This document shows, in pieces, positions 1,616 to 9,143 of a DNA stretch of 35,766 nucleotides (the stretch's first letter is position 1; each line of letters opens with the position of its first letter). The stretch comes from a virus, in the IMG/VR virus record IMGVR_UViG_3300032050_000412, positions 1 to 35,766 of that record, one strand, 5' to 3'. Both the position numbers and the translations under genes were made by a program. The notes under the pieces were generated by a model. That model was not told the origin of the DNA. It did not search any database and saw nothing but the letters and a program-made list of their open reading frames with translations.

Positions 1616-2217
1616 TCATACACAACTGCACCCAAGGTAGCCACGAATGGCACCAACTAAGACTTGGAAAGATAACCGGGTCAAGACTTAAGAAAATGAT
1701 GGCTAAGGACAACCTAGCCCTAATCGATGAACTTATCGCCGAGGAACAAGTCGGCATACCCGATGATGATGAATTCATGTCTGATGAAATGCAACGCGGT
1801 ATCGACATGGAACCGCTGGCTATCCAGGAGTATTCCAACATTACCGGTCATGAGGTAGAACATCCCTGCTTGATTCAATCAGAAGATTGGGACATACTAT
1901 GCCAGTCGCCCGATGGCTATGTCGGAACGGAAGGAGCTGTCGAAATCAAATGCCCCAAGACTAAGACCCACATCAAATACATTCGAATGGGCAAGATTCC
2001 AAACGAATACAAGGAGCAGGTATGGTCTTACTTTTTGGTCAATCCTGATCTTAAATGGCTGGATTTCGTGAGCTACGACCCAAGGCTTGCGGTGAAACCG
2101 ATATGGATTCTCCGCATAAACCGTGAGGATATTGCCGAGGAACTCGATGCGGCCAAAGTCGAACTCATCAAATTCATTATTAAACTTGAAAAGTATAAAT
2201 CCGAAATCTTCTTCTAA
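1612..2217 (+). CDS. YqaJ-like viral recombinase (lambda exonuclease family nuclease)
   Basis: The family is PD-(D/E)XK 5'-3' exonucleases that resect double-stranded DNA ends to feed single-strand annealing. Seen here in a 201-residue protein: WHQLRLGKITGSRL at the N-terminus (the typical R-x-G-x-I-T-G-S segment), RGIDMEPLAIQEYSNITG in the middle, SPDGYVG then GAVEIKCPKTKTH (the D...ExK metal site), and YKEQVWSYFLV (the Q/Y motif of this family). All key elements are present, so it should be active. The start at 1612 is chosen for its ATGA overlap with the previous gene. No Beta/RecT-type annealing protein is recognised nearby; the OB-fold protein at 6645 could serve as the single-strand binder. 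Confidence 0.9.
   Translation: MIIHNCTQGSHEWHQLRLGKITGSRLKKMMAKDNLALIDELIAEEQVGIPDDDEFMSDEMQRGIDMEPLAIQEYSNITGHEVEHPCLIQSEDWDILCQSPDGYVGTEGAVEIKCPKTKTHIKYIRMGKIPNEYKEQVWSYFLVNPDLKWLDFVSYDPRLAVKPIWILRINREDIAEELDAAKVELIKFIIKLEKYKSEIFF
2202..2212 (+). repeat. 11-bp direct repeat, left copy
   Basis: CGAAATCTTCT lies at the very end of the YqaJ gene. The identical 11-mer recurs at 4435-4445 at the end of the AT-rich helicase-methyltransferase gene. The repeats bracket that gene and encode similar C-termini (SEIFF and LEIF). This fits insertion by recombination at or next to a short homology. Confidence 0.65.
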
Positions 2218-2218
2218 T

Positions 2219-4447
2219 ATGACAACATACGAAACATTCTTAAATAATAAGCAAAAATCCATAGTTTTAAGTGGATTTGATATACATGAATCTGAATTAA
2301 ATGATTCAATGTTCGACTTTCAAAAGTTTATAGTAAGAAGAGCATTAAAGGCTGGTAAATATGCAATATTTGCCGATTGTGGTTTAGGTAAAACATTAAT
2401 GCAACTTGAATGGGCAAACAAAGTAAATAAGCACACAAATAAACCAGTGCTTATACTTGCTCCGCTTGCCGTTGCAGGGCAAACAGTAAAAGAAGGTTCA
2501 AAGTTTAATATTGATGTTTGCAAATACGATGGGAGTAATGCACCTATACAAATTTTAAACTATGAGCAATTAGAAAATATTGATACTACTATATTTGGTG
2601 GTATAGTATTGGATGAAAGTAGTATACTAAAGAACTATGAAGGAGCTACAAAAAAACTAATCTTAGATTTGTTTTCTAAAACACCTTATAAGCTTGCTTG
2701 TACTGCAACACCAAGCCCAAACGATCCAATGGAGTTAGGCAATCATTCTGAGTTTTTAGATGTAATGACAAGAACTGAGATGCTTGCAATGTATTTTATT
2801 CATGATGGTGGAGAAACTGCTAAATGGAGATTAAAAGGTCATGCCACAAAATTATTCTATCAATTTGTTGGTACTTGGGCTATTATGCTTAATAAACCAT
2901 CTGATATTGGTTTTATTATGAATGGATATGATTTGCCATCATTGAATTTAATAGAAAAACAGATAATAACTCCTAAAAGAGATAATGGTAGTTTATTTAA
3001 TGATGCAATAATTAGTGCAACTAATTTTAATCAAGAGTTAAGGATAACAAAAGAAGAAAGACTTAATGAAGTCATTAGGCTTGTTAATAGTAAACCGGAA
3101 GAAAATTTCATTATTTGGATTAAACAAAATGAGGAAGGTGAAATATTAAAAAAATTAATTCCTGAAGCTAAAGAGGTAAAAGGCAGTGACACCAATGAAT
3201 GGAAAGAAAAAACACTTCTTGGATTTGCAAATAATGAATTCAGAATATTAATTACTAAAACTAAAATAGCATCTTTTGGAATGAATTATCAAAATTGCAG
3301 GAATCAAATATTTGCTTCACTTGATTTCTCATTTGAAGGCTTATATCAAGCAATTCGCAGAAGTTACCGATTTGGTCAGAAAAATGAAGTAAACATTTAT
3401 TTAATAACTACAGACACAATGGCTAATGTAAATCAATCAATAAATAACAAACAAAAACAATTTGAAATTATGCAAGATGAAATGAGTCAAGCCGTAAATG
3501 CAAATTTAAGCGGAAAACTAATGAATAAATCTCAACTGGATTTGACAGCAGAAAATAATGAATGGTTTAGGATTGAACGCGGAGACAGTTGCCAATTAAT
3601 TAAATCAATACCGGATGAAAGTATTCATTACTCAATATTTAGTCCTCCATTTGCATCTTTATATACATATTCTGATCATTTAGAAGATATGGGGAATTCT
3701 AAAAATTATAATGAGTTCTTTGAACATTTTAAGTATTTAGTAAAAGATTTATTTAGAATACTTAAACCTGGTAGAAATGTATCTATTCATTGTATGAATT
3801 TGCCAACTACAAAAACTCATCATGGCTTTATTGGTATTGAAGATTTTAGAGGAGATATAATTAGACTTTTTCAAGAGTGTGGTTTTACATACCACTCAGA
3901 AGTATGTATTTGGAAAGATCCAGTAATTGCAATGCAAAGAACAAAGGCAATAGGATTATTGCATAAACAAGTAGTCAAGGATAGTTGTATGAGTAGACAA
4001 GGAATACCAGATTATTTAGTTACTATGAAAAAACCTGGAATAAATACTGAACCAGTTCAAGGTGAATTTGATCATTTCTGTGGTGATCAAAGTACATTTA
4101 AATCTGAAGGTAGATTGTCAATTGATATTTGGCAGCGTTACGCATCACCTGTTTGGATGGATATAGATCCTGGAAATACTTTGCAATACATGTCTGCAAG
4201 AAATGAAAAAGATGAAAGGCATATTTGTCCATTACAATTAGATGTTATTCATAGAGGTGTTCAGTTATGGTCTAATCCTGGAGATACTGTATTTACTCCA
4301 TTTTTGGGAATAGGTAGTGAATTATATGAGTCTATTAAATTAAATAGGAAAGGTATCGGTTTTGAATTAAAAGAAAGTTACTTTGATTTAGCCAAATCAA
4401 ATCTTAATTCATTAATTAAATCAAAAAATCAACTCGAAATCTTCTAA
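2219..4447 (+). CDS. SF2 helicase fused to a beta-class DNA methyltransferase
   Basis: This 742-residue protein joins two enzymes. Residues 1-430 form a SNF2-like ATPase: Walker A CGLGKT (54-59), motif II LDESS (131-135), motif III TATPSPN (162-168), motif V near IASFGMNYQN (350-359) and motif VI QAIRRSYRFGQ (377-387). Residues 445-742 form an amino-methyltransferase with catalytic SPPF (475-478) before the SAM-binding FTPFLGIGSE (692-701), the order of the beta class. It probably methylates adenine N6 or cytosine N4 in phage DNA, as protection against restriction; DarB of phage P1 also combines methylase and helicase. No nuclease domain is seen. Base composition is far more AT-rich than the neighbours, with sharp edges at both ends. 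The ATG at 2219 is where the composition changes. Confidence 0.88.
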   Translation: MTTYETFLNNKQKSIVLSGFDIHESELNDSMFDFQKFIVRRALKAGKYAIFADCGLGKTLMQLEWANKVNKHTNKPVLILAPLAVAGQTVKEGSKFNIDVCKYDGSNAPIQILNYEQLENIDTTIFGGIVLDESSILKNYEGATKKLILDLFSKTPYKLACTATPSPNDPMELGNHSEFLDVMTRTEMLAMYFIHDGGETAKWRLKGHATKLFYQFVGTWAIMLNKPSDIGFIMNGYDLPSLNLIEKQIITPKRDNGSLFNDAIISATNFNQELRITKEERLNEVIRLVNSKPEENFIIWIKQNEEGEILKKLIPEAKEVKGSDTNEWKEKTLLGFANNEFRILITKTKIASFGMNYQNCRNQIFASLDFSFEGLYQAIRRSYRFGQKNEVNIYLITTDTMANVNQSINNKQKQFEIMQDEMSQAVNANLSGKLMNKSQLDLTAENNEWFRIERGDSCQLIKSIPDESIHYSIFSPPFASLYTYSDHLEDMGNSKNYNEFFEHFKYLVKDLFRILKPGRNVSIHCMNLPTTKTHHGFIGIEDFRGDIIRLFQECGFTYHSEVCIWKDPVIAMQRTKAIGLLHKQVVKDSCMSRQGIPDYLVTMKKPGINTEPVQGEFDHFCGDQSTFKSEGRLSIDIWQRYASPVWMDIDPGNTLQYMSARNEKDERHICPLQLDVIHRGVQLWSNPGDTVFTPFLGIGSELYESIKLNRKGIGFELKESYFDLAKSNLNSLIKSKNQLEIF
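4435..4445 (+). repeat. 11-bp direct repeat, right copy
   Basis: This is the second copy of CGAAATCTTCT (first copy 2202-2212), again placed directly before a stop codon and the next gene's start. Deleting one repeat plus the intervening 2.2 kb would leave an intact YqaJ gene followed by the zinc-ribbon gene. Confidence 0.65.
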
Positions 4448-5067: not shown

Positions 5068-6077
5068 AAAGGACTGACCTGAAACGAGCCGTCATCGTTA
5101 ACTTCTACGGTGGCGGCTCCTTGGGTCCACTGGTTTAGCACTCCTGTATATCTTGGCTTCAAATACGCCAAACAACCCAAAGCCCAAGCACCATGAACCT
5201 CATCGGCAAGGTTCCTGGAAGTATCAACTTGCTGTTTATGCCAGTGTCCGAATATCACATTGACACCCACCCTCATCCTGACCTGCCGAGCAATATTAAC
5301 CGTGCCACTTTTCAAACCAAGCTCATGACCGTGCGCTATCCATAGCTTACCGAACCGCGCCACTTTATGCTCAGGGACATGGATGATGTTATGGTCAGCC
5401 AACTCCAACTGAGTGGGGATATCCATACCGAACAACTTAACCAGTTCCGGTGCCTTCGAGGCCACATAAGCCTCCAACCTTTTCTCATGGTTGCCATCCT
5501 TCCAAAAGATAGGAATATCAGGAAACAAGCTCCGTAGCGACTTCACAAAGCTTCTGCCAACTTCAATCTCATCGCGCAGGTATCTTCCATCTGGCATCTT
5601 TTCAAATCGGCTCACATCTTCCAGATCCATGATATCGCCGTTAAGATATATCCCATCCACCCCACGCTTCTTAAACTCACTGAAGCAAGCCTGAACCGCA
5701 AACTTATCATGGTAAGGCAAGTGTATATCGTTACAGATACCCAACTTCTTTACACCTTGTATAACATAAGGCTCATTGATCTCACTCCAACTATTGGGAA
5801 AGTCTACCATTAAACCCAGCGGATCATTAAAGTCAGCTTCAACCATCACAGCATCACCCAATATAGCCCTTTGCACACTTTCCAAATCACGGTCATAATC
5901 CTTGATCTTGCCCTGTCGGCATCGAGCCACATAACCCCGAATAGTATTATAAGTAGTTTTAACCTCTGGGTGCATCTTCAAATACAACTTGGAAACCCTA
6001 TCTATGCCAAGGTCAGAGGTCCTATGAGCCTCATCATTCTCGGTCAGCCACTTATTTACTTCCTGTCTTAAGCTCAT
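5040..6077 (-). CDS. Calcineurin-like metallophosphoesterase
   Basis: This 345-residue protein carries the metal-binding motifs of the family in order: NDIHLPYHD (D-x-H), NGDIMDLED (GD), KDGNHEKRLEAY (GNHE), IAHGHELG and FGHWHKQQ (GHxH). The first 80 or so residues are helical, with a repressor- or resolvase-like HTH appearance (SKLYLKMHPEVKTTYNTIRG). Family members hydrolyse phosphomono- or phosphodiesters, and in phages they can act on DNA, RNA or nucleotides; the substrate here is unknown. The gene overlaps the end of the upstream zincin gene by 26 bases, so the two form a minus-strand operon. Its 3' end meets the AP2-like fragment. Confidence 0.88.
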   Translation of the reverse strand: MSLRQEVNKWLTENDEAHRTSDLGIDRVSKLYLKMHPEVKTTYNTIRGYVARCRQGKIKDYDRDLESVQRAILGDAVMVEADFNDPLGLMVDFPNSWSEINEPYVIQGVKKLGICNDIHLPYHDKFAVQACFSEFKKRGVDGIYLNGDIMDLEDVSRFEKMPDGRYLRDEIEVGRSFVKSLRSLFPDIPIFWKDGNHEKRLEAYVASKAPELVKLFGMDIPTQLELADHNIIHVPEHKVARFGKLWIAHGHELGLKSGTVNIARQVRMRVGVNVIFGHWHKQQVDTSRNLADEVHGAWALGCLAYLKPRYTGVLNQWTQGAATVEVNDDGSFQVSPFQIVDGVVV

Positions 6078-6426
6078 AGATTTCTTTGATTAAGTATCCA
6101 AACAAATACGCAAACGACTCTTCACTACTCTGGTCATGCTTCAAACCGATATACCTGCCATGGTCCATCACCACATGCCAAACCTCATGAGCAATAGCTT
6201 CAATCGAAAGCTTGGTGAACATGATCACATACTGACCAGGTAAGCTATGCTCTAGATAACAGGTCTGCGCATCGGTATCGCAATCCATGGTAAACTCAGA
6301 AGGATTGAACTTTTCCGACTTGTTTCTGATTCGATTTAGCTTAGTGGCAACCTCAAAAGCCGTAGCCTTGACAAACACATGCACCACAAAGGGGCGGTCT
6401 TTCAATGCTATCTTCTTGTAAATCAC
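6052..6426 (-). CDS. HExxH zinc metallopeptidase-like protein
   Basis: This 124-residue protein has HEVWH at residues 80-84 with a following acidic residue (E103 in SSEESFAYLFG) able to act as third ligand, the layout of small gluzincin-like peptidases seen in phages. It has no signal peptide or membrane segment, so it probably acts in the cytoplasm, perhaps on a host protein; it is not an obvious endolysin. The start codon is GTG at 6426-6424. It is the first gene of the minus-strand pair and lies about 27 bases after a TATTTTTG promoter box on that strand. Confidence 0.8.
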   Translation of the reverse strand: MIYKKIALKDRPFVVHVFVKATAFEVATKLNRIRNKSEKFNPSEFTMDCDTDAQTCYLEHSLPGQYVIMFTKLSIEAIAHEVWHVVMDHGRYIGLKHDQSSEESFAYLFGYLIKEIYELKTGSK

Positions 6427-6517: not shown

Positions 6518-6532
6518 TAGTTTAGCAGCATC
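6518..6532 (+). promoter_or_regulatory. Candidate promoter or control element shared with the 233-247 region
   Basis: TAGTTTAGCAGCATC here and TAATTTAGCGGCATC at 233-247 match at 13 of 15 bases. Each is preceded by a TTGTAC half-site (6492-6497 and 227-232). Both lie just upstream of plus-strand early units. The element is either an atypical -7 region or a regulator site. Confidence 0.35.
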
Positions 6533-6535
6533 GTT

Positions 6536-6612
6536 GTGACAGACGTATTAAGAAATTGGTGATTCCCCACCACAAGTACCCCCGAAAGATGTCTGTCACC
6601 ATCCTAGGGGGT
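6536..6612 (+). ncRNA. Structured 5' leader with H-type pseudoknot, before the OB-fold gene
   Basis: Stem 1: GTGACAGAC (6536-6544) pairs with GTCTGTCAC (6591-6599), extendable to 11 bp with a G-U pair. Inside it a small hairpin forms (TGGTG 6557-6561 with CACCA 6568-6572). A loop segment ACCCCC (6578-6583) pairs with GGGGGT (6607-6612) downstream of stem 1, making an H-type pseudoknot whose second stem is followed by T-rich sequence and, 32 bases later, the ATG at 6645. It could be an attenuator, a translation-control element or a riboswitch-like RNA. A second leader of the same layout lies at 7143-7248. Confidence 0.55.
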
Positions 6613-6644
6613 TTCTTATTGTTACCAACTTAAAACAAATAAAT

Positions 6645-6944
6645 ATGGAAATCCAAGGAAAAGTAGTAAGAATCTTCCCAATCGAACAGGGAGAGTCAAA
6701 ATCAGGTAAAGCCTGGAAAAAACAAAACTTTGTGATGGAGTACACCGATGGCCAGTTCGCCAAGAAGGTACTTGTAACAGTCAAAGCCGACCCACTCCTG
6801 GCGATGGTCAATATGTTCAGACCAGGTGAGCAAGTAAAATGCCAAGTCAGCGTAGAAGCTCGCGAATGGAATGACCGATTCTTTACAGATGTAACGGCAT
6901 GGAAAATTGAAAAACTGATTGAAAATGTGGATAACTCGTTCTAA
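6645..6944 (+). CDS. DUF3127-like OB-fold protein, probable ssDNA-binding protein
   Basis: The 99-residue sequence follows the DUF3127 pattern of Bacteroidota: MEIQGKVVRIFPIEQGESKS, then KAWKKQNFVMEY, a beta strand FAKKVLVTV, and REWNDRFFTDVTAWKIEKL near the end. This family has an SSB-like OB fold. In a phage with a YqaJ nuclease and an SF3 helicase it would coat single-stranded DNA during replication and recombination. The length equals a minimal OB domain, with a short acidic tail (IENVDNSF), like the acidic tip of SSB proteins. It is preceded by the structured leader at 6536-6612. Confidence 0.8.
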   Translation: MEIQGKVVRIFPIEQGESKSGKAWKKQNFVMEYTDGQFAKKVLVTVKADPLLAMVNMFRPGEQVKCQVSVEAREWNDRFFTDVTAWKIEKLIENVDNSF

Positions 6945-7146
6945 ATATAAATACAGGTTTCCATCACTACATAAGAACTATGGTAAGCCTAGATTCGACC
7001 GAAGTGGTAAACGATGGAGCCAACCCAAGATGATTGAATTCATCAAATCAAAAACACACTGGGATGCTTATGATTTCAAATATGAACTAAGAATAACTAT
7101 TGACCATAGTAGGTATCTTTTATTGTTAATACAATCGGGAAAGTAA
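6919..7146 (+). CDS. Small basic hypothetical protein (75 aa)
   Basis: The frame begins inside the end of the OB-fold gene (26-base overlap) and ends with the TAA at 7144-7146, which lies inside stem 1 of the second leader RNA. The product is basic and aromatic (SKYKYRFPSLHKNYGKPRFD). No family is recognised. Coding is less certain here because codon use is mixed and the frame is short. Confidence 0.45.
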   Translation: MKMWITRSKYKYRFPSLHKNYGKPRFDRSGKRWSQPKMIEFIKSKTHWDAYDFKYELRITIDHSRYLLLLIQSGK

Positions 7147-7248
7147 GACACTCCCTCACTTAACATACTAACCAGCCCTGATGGGGCGGATTCATTCGGC
7201 AATAGGTTGTCTTACACCTGCCCACCGTTTGATGAAGCCTCTCAGGGT
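7143..7248 (+). ncRNA. Second structured 5' leader with pseudoknot potential
   Basis: Stem 1: GTAAGACA (7143-7150) with TGTCTTAC (7208-7215), 8 bp. Loop segment GCCCTGA (7175-7181) can pair with TCAGGGT (7242-7248), 7 bp including one G-U. This is immediately followed by a run of T and then CTTACC before the ATG at 7264. A competing local hairpin is possible (GCCC 7175-7178 with GGGC 7184-7187). The layout and several short blocks (TGTCT, CACC, GGG-TTT, CTTA, TACC) match the leader at 6536-6612 while the stem sequences differ. The downstream pairing plus the T-run also resembles an attenuator. Confidence 0.5.
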
Positions 7249-7263
7249 TTTTTTCTTACCACC

Positions 7264-7638
7264 ATGAGCATAAACAAAGAACTTAACAACCTCCGTAACC
7301 GCATCAAGCAGTACGAACTGAAGCCTGATCACTCGGATTCATATCTCATCTGGATGCAAAACCTTGAACAGGCCATAACAGCCACGCTTGAGGAAATCGA
7401 GATGGACCAGGATGAAATACGATTCATGTATCAAGTCCAAATCCAAGATCTCCACAAGCAGATAGATGCCAACATTGAGGTTATCAAGAAGCTCGCCCTA
7501 ATCATCGAGGCCGCAGGAATCCAATTCCCAACCATACACCAATCCCTGTCAGCCATCAAAAATTATCACCTGGTCGCGATGGGATATGCCGACAAAATCA
7601 ATAGCTTCGACCCCCATTCTATTAAAGTCAGCCTATGA
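7264..7638 (+). CDS. Helical hypothetical protein upstream of the primase-helicase
   Basis: ATG 7264 lies three bases after the TACC that ends the structured leader. The 124-residue product is almost all helix with coiled-coil character (NKELNNLRNRIKQYEL, then MYQVQIQDLHKQIDANIEVI). Its stop overlaps the start of the SF3 helicase gene (7635), suggesting the two are co-translated. It may be a helicase partner or loader, but that is context only; no motif is visible. Confidence 0.75.
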   Translation: MSINKELNNLRNRIKQYELKPDHSDSYLIWMQNLEQAITATLEEIEMDQDEIRFMYQVQIQDLHKQIDANIEVIKKLALIIEAAGIQFPTIHQSLSAIKNYHLVAMGYADKINSFDPHSIKVSL

Positions 7639-9143
7639 CCCACAAACACACCAACCCGGTTAACTATTGGGACCAAGAACGCTCTTGGCAGGAATCCCTT
7701 CAAACCATCAAGGTGGAATGGATAAGCGATACCCAAATCGCTCCTGAACGGTCTTCCAAGCCGTGCTTTATAATCAAGGATGACCGACTGTTGGTGGTGG
7801 ATTCAAACCCCCTTAAACTGCCTATCGATGACAGCTTCACCAAATTCGAGATGCTAACCCTGGGCAAATTCAAAGGAAACGCCCAAGCCGCTTGGACATG
7901 GGTAGGGGTTAAATACATGAACATCGGACTACCCTACCTGCGCGTGGGCGATAGCTACTATAAAATCACCCATGTCCGTGACCGATACGAGGTTCTTCGC
8001 GCCCAGATCAAAGCCTTCAAGAAAGAGGAAATCAAGACAGATCACGGACCAGCTATTATGCCCCTCATACCCAAGTATGATGACTTCTGCATAGTTCCGG
8101 ATAACATGAACTACTGCGAGGTAGTAGATAATTGCTACAACCTATACCACCCATTCAGCCACAAACCTTGGTCAGCTGATCGCAGATTGAAGGACAACGA
8201 TATCAAGGTTAGTATGGGACTGATGCGCCATATCTTCGGTGAACAGGTCGAAATGGGTATTAAATACCTGAAGCTTCTTTACGAAAACCCACGACAAGCC
8301 CTGCCAATCCTATGCCTGGTCAGTCGCGAGAGGCAGACAGGCAAAACTACATTCCTGAACTGGATGAACATCATGTTCGGGCAGAACTATTGCCAAATCA
8401 ATCCCGAAGACCTCGGCAGCCAATTCAACTCAGCATATGCCACTAAGAACGTAATAGCCTTGGATGAGACCGTTATCGATAAGTCCCACGCAGTTGAGAA
8501 GCTTAAATCCATAGCCACAGCCAAGACCATATCCGTTAACCAGAAGTTCGTGGCTAACTACTCGGTCCCATTCTTTGGCAAAGTCATCATATGCACCAAC
8601 AAGGAACATGACTTCATGCGTATCGATGAAGAGGAAATCCGTTTCTGGATCCGCAAGGTGCCTCAGATATCAGCCATCAATACCAATATCGAGAACGACC
8701 TGACCGATGAAGTACCTGCATTCCTGCGGTTTCTTATGAACCAGCCTTCCGTGGATATCAAGCGGTCAAGGATGGTGTTCACTGCCGAGGAACTGCATAA
8801 CGAATCGCTCAACAAGGTCAAAGCCGAAAGCCAATCCCAGCTTCGTAAAGACTTCAATATTATTATGGCCGATTTCTTTAATACCAATGGCATGGACAAA
8901 ATCCAAGCTACCATATCTGATCTCAAGGAAAAGTTCTTCAAGTTCAACAGTCAAGTCGGACCAGGTTACTTGCGCAAGATGCTGACCATGGAAATGGGAT
9001 ATAAACCTATCCACGGCAGATATAGGCCGATGGAAACGCATGAAATCAATAGTAAGGTTGGAGTACATTATACTTTCTTGAGGACTGATTTTGTCCAAAA
9101 TGACCTGCCCCCACAGCCACCAGATGATAACTTCCCGTTCTGA
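7635..9143 (+). CDS. SF3 primase-helicase (D5/DUF5906-like)
   Basis: This 502-residue replication helicase has Walker A SRERQTGKTTF (230-240), Walker B VIALDET (273-279) and superfamily-3 motif C GKVIICTNKEH (315-325), followed by an arginine-rich segment. The first 220 residues resemble the linker and D5 N-terminal part; I do not see a complete catalytic primase motif set, so priming may rely on the host. SF3 helicases form hexameric rings that unwind DNA at a phage origin. The repeat-rich AT tract right after the gene (9144-9425) is a natural origin candidate. It overlaps the preceding gene by 4 bases (ATGA). Confidence 0.88.
   Translation: MTHKHTNPVNYWDQERSWQESLQTIKVEWISDTQIAPERSSKPCFIIKDDRLLVVDSNPLKLPIDDSFTKFEMLTLGKFKGNAQAAWTWVGVKYMNIGLPYLRVGDSYYKITHVRDRYEVLRAQIKAFKKEEIKTDHGPAIMPLIPKYDDFCIVPDNMNYCEVVDNCYNLYHPFSHKPWSADRRLKDNDIKVSMGLMRHIFGEQVEMGIKYLKLLYENPRQALPILCLVSRERQTGKTTFLNWMNIMFGQNYCQINPEDLGSQFNSAYATKNVIALDETVIDKSHAVEKLKSIATAKTISVNQKFVANYSVPFFGKVIICTNKEHDFMRIDEEEIRFWIRKVPQISAINTNIENDLTDEVPAFLRFLMNQPSVDIKRSRMVFTAEELHNESLNKVKAESQSQLRKDFNIIMADFFNTNGMDKIQATISDLKEKFFKFNSQVGPGYLRKMLTMEMGYKPIHGRYRPMETHEINSKVGVHYTFLRTDFVQNDLPPQPPDDNFPF

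Follow-up and report, generated by a model that had tools for sequence, protein, structure and literature searches.

To our knowledge, few phages have been described in which structured leaders control the replication genes. Kissing loops of the RNAI/RNAII type and those of cobalamin riboswitches span about 7-9 nt with near-complete pairing, and put-type RNAs bind the zinc-binding domain of the polymerase beta' subunit and suppress termination. In phage HK022, two putRNAs of ~70 nt, putL and putR, lie near the early promoters and fold into two stem-loops each (PMC9378689). In the T4 gp32 leader, a pseudoknot of ~28 nt is followed by >40 nt with less structure, in which UUAAA/UAAA units occur, and this gene 32 operator varies among T4 relatives (PMC535899).

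The window analysed here is a whole virus record of 35,766 bases, and all of its relatives are uncultured metagenomic contigs. Leader A precedes its DUF3127 gene, and leader B precedes its DUF5906 primase/helicase operon (Table 1). As judged from the comparison of homologues, both leaders are almost certainly structured RNAs that are conserved and contain a loop-loop kiss, and we judge them to be a new cis-acting phage leader RNA, most likely an attenuator, with a translational operator for the SSB-like protein and a put-like antiterminator as serious competitors. Type A leaders consist of a 5' hairpin (HP1), a middle hairpin (M), the 5' arm of P2, HP2, the 3' arm of P2 and a U-rich tract, and type B leaders of HP1, an A-rich linker, P2, the GGAT/TGAA internal loop, P3, a second internal loop, HP2 and a U-rich tract. 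The common layout that the initial annotation had seen in the two leaders is borne out, with element ends that the covariance models extend to about 6529-6621 (A) and 7136-7254 (B).

Table 1. Features of the two leaders and of the adjacent genes in the window.
Feature	Position	Strand	Remarks
Divergent neighbour of leader A	6052..6426	-	phrog_1365, function unassigned
Candidate Bacteroidota -7 promoter element TAGTTTAG	6518..6525	+	near match to TAnnTTTG; directly upstream of leader A
Leader A, whole	6529..6621	+	covariance model R2, G000, 99.0 bits; sole R2 match in record
A-HP1, 5' hairpin CGT[TGTGACAG]ACG	6532..6545	+	stem covaries: CGT/ACG, CAT/ATG, CAA/TTG in homologues
A kiss, 5' strand GTGACAG	6536..6542	+	cis/swap pairing and covariation
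A-M, middle hairpin TGGTG[ATTCCC]CACCA	6557..6572	+	loop conserved; folding and homologues
A-P2/HP2 rod ACCCCC ... GATG[TCTGTCAC]CATC ... GGGGGT	6578..6612	+	-14.8 kcal/mol folded alone
A kiss, 3' strand CTGTCAC, HP2 loop	6593..6599	+	cis/swap pairing and covariation
U-rich tract TTCTTATT after rod A	6613..6620	+	5-6 T in 8 in 9/9 tabulated type A sequences
DUF3127 gene, SSB-like OB fold	6645..6944	+	PF11325, E 9e-24; phrog_4932, single strand DNA binding protein
Small ORF, 75 aa	6919..7146	+	overlaps DUF3127 gene end; stop inside B-HP1
Leader B, whole	7136..7254	+	covariance model R1, G000, 117.7 bits; sole R1 match in record
B-HP1, 5' hairpin GGGA[AAGTAAGACAC]TCCC	7137..7155	+	stem invariant except alignment shift in L104
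B kiss, 5' strand GTAAGAC	7143..7149	+	cis/swap pairing and covariation
B rod: P2 (AGCCCTGA-GGGGC / GCCTC-TCAGGGTT), P3 (CGG/CCG), apical HP2 (AGGT[TGTCTTAC]ACCT)	7174..7249	+	
Internal loop GGAT, 5' side	7188..7191	+	opposite TGAA 7233-7236; kept in all type B including L104
B kiss, 3' strand GTCTTAC, HP2 loop	7209..7215	+	cis/swap pairing and covariation
U-rich tract after rod B	7250..7257	+	7/8 T in window; 4-6 T in 8 in homologues
Gene next downstream of leader B, 124 aa	7264..7638	+	no Pfam or PHROG match
DUF5906 primase/helicase-like gene	7635..9143	+	PF19263, E 7e-19; phrog_1156 DNA primase, E 1e-13

The DUF3127 protein looks SSB-like, by its predicted fold as well as by its PHROG: the AlphaFold model has a pLDDT of 88.6, and its best PDB matches are SSB and PriB, with E from 2e-5 and TM 0.6-0.7. 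The box upstream of leader A resembles TAnnTTTG, the Bacteroidota -7 promoter consensus (PMC6847099); an exact copy stands at the equivalent place in the homologues L003/L004/L008, and an exact or near box lies a few bases 5' of HP1 in many homologues, which would place transcription starts there. From this promoter-like box and from the relatives of the DUF3127 protein, the host presumably belongs to the Bacteroidota. No TAnnTTTG-like box was found close to leader B in the window, and as the small ORF stops within B-HP1, leader B may sit inside an operon there. The divergent neighbour at 6052-6426 has apparent counterparts upstream of leader A in relatives. Elsewhere in the window, at 2123-4447 (+), there is a helicase-methyltransferase fusion ORF, in which SNF2/helicase domains are followed by a DNA N6/N4 methylase.

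Homologues were collected with a helicase query, which led to 13 related IMG/VR loci, and with DNA patterns and DUF3127/primase searches, which added a few more, the contigs being largely repeats. After merging of duplicates, the distinct stretches number 15 for type A and 12 for type B, one type B being cut at a contig end; a further type A pattern match in L023/L025 was set aside as chance. MAFFT alignments comprise 13 type A and 11 type B sequences. The covariance models R2 (type A) and R1 (type B) find at most one A and one B per record, and a weak reverse-strand R1 echo of leader B is due to the partly palindromic nature of B. Leader A is present in L003, L004, L008, L009, L012 and L031; four records of this A-bearing set were searched with R1 (G001, G005, G006, G013), and none of them gave a B, and R2 detected no A in L104/L106, where B is present. 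Across 16 records and at E <= 0.5, R1 matches are confined to B and R2 matches to A, and since neither model matches the other type, a common descent of A and B, which the initial annotation had implied by calling the leaders related, is not supported.

The distribution of the leaders appears to be limited to one phage group. A sequence search of INPHARED phages gave no leader match, and the helicase had only a 24% match there, in one Caudoviricetes record; a search of genome contigs with the helicase alignment gave none. Among Bacteroidota genomes (395 per model), where about ten candidates were scored per genome and a negative is accordingly weak, R2 found nothing and R1 gave two weak matches (E 0.016 and 0.036), neither convincing and both judged to be chance, one being partial (54 bases, L297) and the other just 58 bases long. 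Broader patterns in viral contigs, one of them spaced for L104 alone and hence unable to recover the group of the window, returned known members and chance matches only. In those DUF3127 relatives that were searched (30-45% identity), no R1 or R2 match stood convincingly above chance, the best one (E 0.0096, 55 bases) lying downstream of the gene in L263. Rfam 15 gave no match at the gathering threshold, and permissive settings gave chance-level matches far below the gathering scores, which agrees with the earlier impression that no described riboswitch class is present.

The main argument for the structures comes from the kiss itself. There are nine distinct kiss sequences, three in type A and six in type B, and all of them pair 7/7 in cis, while HP1 and HP2 loops swapped within a type pair at 1-6/7 positions; the arms were placed by eye, and in the register chosen for L017 one of the base pairs is G-U. 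As relatives exchange the kiss sequence and yet the pairing persists, the leader structures can be regarded as real. For the B kiss, the covariation score is 0.629 versus a shuffled mean of 0.233, with 0/500 shuffles reaching 0.629 and scores of 0.036-0.255 when the kiss is slid out of register, and 5/7 pairs are altered on both sides in the MAFFT alignment. The whole structures of A and B exceed every shuffle, for the covariation score as well as for the cells paired. Such shuffle counts are not probabilities, as the aligned sequences are related, and the several distinct kiss types are the stronger argument. Moreover, the MAFFT alignments A5 and A6 misplace a few arms in L005/L017/L026 (A) and in L006/L022 and the L010-type (B), which results in lower pair counts. 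In type A, the HP1 and HP2 stems also covary, the outer pair of rod A changes from A-U to G-C, and the HP2 stem occurs in four versions; in type B, HP1 has no compensatory changes, and HP2 is altered on both sides once, in L104. It is this comparison that shows the helices, the kiss, their conservation and their position before replication operons. An AAGAAA/TTTCTT helix that pairs in leader A of the window is absent from L003 and L004 and was not counted.

These results recover the pairings of the initial annotation, which are GTGACAG 6536-6542 with CTGTCAC 6593-6599 and ACCCCC 6578-6583 with GGGGGT 6607-6612 in leader A, and GTAAGAC 7143-7149 with GTCTTAC 7209-7215 and AGCCCTGA 7174-7181 with TCAGGGTT 7242-7249 in leader B, and the covariation among homologues agrees with its view that the stem sequences differ and stay paired. 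What had been termed stem 1 is indeed paired but differs in nature: as the HP1 and HP2 stems flank the pairing, and as these stems covary in type A, it consists for the most part of a 7-bp kiss, in which the loop of HP1 pairs with that of HP2. The proposed pseudoknot therefore stands, but with another geometry, in which the loop of a 5' hairpin kisses the apical loop of a rod. The TACC-containing end is present in the window and absent from most homologues.

Folding agrees with this geometry as far as minimum-energy folds can, since they cannot contain pseudoknots: the rod with an open HP2 loop appears in 7/7 whole leaders and HP1 in 6/7, the L011 piece having begun inside HP1 so that HP1 could not appear; the folded HP1 loop is often narrower by one extra pair. 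Type A folds have modest z-scores, from -1.7 to -2.5, those of type B are stronger, from -2.7 to -4.6, and rod B alone folds with -33.6 kcal/mol (z -4.28). A nested 9-bp stem 1 was rejected as the main fold, as the stem-1-nested, P2-open fold falls short of the stability of the rod by 3.0 kcal/mol (A, window) to 11.9 kcal/mol (B, L104). In a single-sequence geometry scan, the window gave nine matches on the + strand and eight on the - strand, and Markov nulls gave 4-9 per strand. The kiss geometry in the window alone is not beyond chance, and it is the covariation among homologues that gives it significance; the other matches of the scan correspond to the null expectation and were not taken as further kissing leaders.

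Two details of rod B are worth describing. The GGAT/TGAA internal loop, whose flanking stems vary, resembles tandem G-A mismatches and is a candidate binding site. An ATGAA within the rod (window 7232-7263 and homologues) starts short frames toward the next gene, which by eye end in an ATGA overlap in W, L002, L006 and L022 and are in frame with the gene in L005, L007, L010, L011 and L013; as the reading frame differs between homologues, a leader peptide starting at this conserved ATGAA was dropped.

How might the leaders act? The main reading is transcription attenuation, to which we assign a rough probability of 0.4, a value that, like all gradings of confidence in this work, is a judgement and was not computed. 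HP1, which would lie close to the 5' end of the transcript or right at it, would be the earliest part to form, and the rod with P2 and HP2 would form next and end in the U-rich tract, where part of the transcripts would terminate. The kiss, depending on whether it is formed or blocked, would then set the fraction of transcripts that reaches the replication genes, possibly with the help of a factor recognising the conserved internal loops. The transcription start, the termination at the U-tract, the regulation by the kiss and any effector are parts that we infer. The rod and U-tract are attenuator-like, as had been noted in the initial annotation: in leader A, a GC-rich stem followed by a U-tract lies between candidate promoter and gene, and this arrangement is weaker in B. 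In most copies, the U-tract is found 11-35 bases before the next start codon. The type A tract has five or six T in eight, whereas T makes up a fraction of 0.28 of the 20 bases that precede the gene starts of the window, and it is preserved even though the bases that follow it have diverged. Leader A is not the terminator of an upstream gene, because the neighbour lies on the opposite strand, and with the U-tract kept and no upstream gene on the same strand, A is most naturally read as an attenuator or as a small RNA.

Attenuation at the operon level would also fit the accessory genes that are found between leader and core genes. Genes without Pfam match occupy this place in L006, L010, L017 and L104, and a short ORF does so in L022; behind leader B, L007 (634-1317) encodes a Mom family protein (PF25680, E 2e-36), and the ORFs L017 2592-3170 and L104 2042-2575 resemble each other when compared by eye and match no Pfam family; all three lie directly behind the leader. 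As a counter-point, the U-tract of type B has only 4 T in 8 in L005, L006 and L007, so that the T-rich stretch noted earlier is a constant feature of type A (5-6 T in 8) but a variable one of type B (4-7 T in 8). No conserved antiterminator fold that excludes P2 was found. The sites of a generic terminator scan were not above those of shuffles, and neither rod was listed, as the scan limited loops to 3-8 bases. Furthermore, rod B and the start codon are separated by a near-constant gap of about 13-16 bases, also where an accessory gene follows, and such spacing would be equally suited to control of translation.

A translational operator is the alternative to be weighed first, although we regard it as less likely than attenuation. 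The SSB-like DUF3127 protein would bind the leaders and spread over AU-rich bases to the start codon, and whenever little single-stranded DNA is present, it would shut off both its own gene and the helicase operon, in analogy to T4 gp32 and the gene 32 leader. Such a gp32-like operator is conceivable because the protein is SSB-like by fold and PHROG, and leader A lies directly before its gene in most records. The T4 pseudoknot is a precedent (PMC535899), and in the window leader A is followed by CTTAAAACAAATAAAT, the 32 AU-rich nt from rod A to the DUF3127 start containing CTTAAAAC and AATAAAT and differing in length among homologues. However, AU-rich start regions are ordinary in Bacteroidota, and an extra gene separates leader A from DUF3127 in L006 and L010. 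In the distant relative L106, DUF3127 is encoded in a different operon and no leader is recognisable before it, so that autogenous control would be lost there while leader B is kept, which opposes a purely autogenous form. DUF3127 is encoded in 16/16 records searched, but this figure is biased towards the gene, next to which most of the records had been located.

It is unlikely that the leaders are put-like antiterminators, which would bind the transcribing RNA polymerase and let it pass later terminators in early operons. Each phage has one or two of the elements with two main hairpins each, in many homologues they lie right behind the promoter-like boxes of replication operons, and operons that accept cargo genes would profit, but such a model has no role for the U-tract directly after the rod, and leader B of the window follows a small ORF and not clearly a promoter of its own.

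Two further readings are quite improbable. In a riboswitch or other ligand-sensing leader, the kiss would serve as a tertiary lock, and some unpaired positions (GGAT/TGAA and a CCCA strand in B, the loop RTTCCC in A) are indeed more conserved than the kissing loops, but there is no Rfam class, the spread covers one phage group, and the downstream genes suggest no obvious metabolite. A leader that is released as small RNA, or that serves mRNA processing or stability, would agree with the promoter-like box and terminator-like end of several homologues, which would yield RNAs of about 95 and 125 nt, and with the long irregular rod of type B in an intergenic gap; in the window, however, the stretch from rod A to the start of DUF3127 has no recognisable promoter, so that this gene appears to need read-through.

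A more specific picture can tentatively be drawn, in which a new class of leaders has a 5' hairpin that kisses the tip of a terminator-like rod, and in which the matched pair might set the expression of SSB-like protein and primase/helicase in proportion, the kiss being either a terminator switch or a binding site of the SSB-like protein. No Rfam family covers either leader, and the pair offers a clean test case, as a covarying kiss before likely SSB and primase/helicase genes lends itself to disruption and repair through exchanged bases. Should the terminator be under the control of the kiss, this would constitute a simple, re-programmable transcription gate that is based on loop-loop pairing.

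How do these leaders compare with the described systems? With T4 gene 32, they share the pseudoknot leader of a phage SSB-like gene and the AU-rich RNA up to the start, and leader A would indeed be a pseudoknot in the leader of an SSB gene. Here, in contrast, two hairpins kiss within 93-119 nt in place of a compact pseudoknot of ~28 nt, the helicase operon has a leader as well, and protein binding is putative; the SSB-gene leader is found in most records, whereas the DUF3127 gene of L106 lacks it. The HK022 put elements, likened by layout alone, are also two two-stem-loop elements near early transcript starts, but the leaders described here, with starts that are predicted, have a 7-bp loop-loop kiss and a U-tract, and some records have A only or B only. 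Compared with the kisses of RNAI/RNAII and cobalamin riboswitches, both loops are in one leader here. Intrinsic-terminator attenuators, finally, share with leader A the GC-rich hairpin and the U-rich tract between promoter and first gene; the difference is that, in place of a mutually exclusive antiterminator, which was not found here, it is the loop of the terminator-like hairpin itself that would kiss the 5' hairpin.
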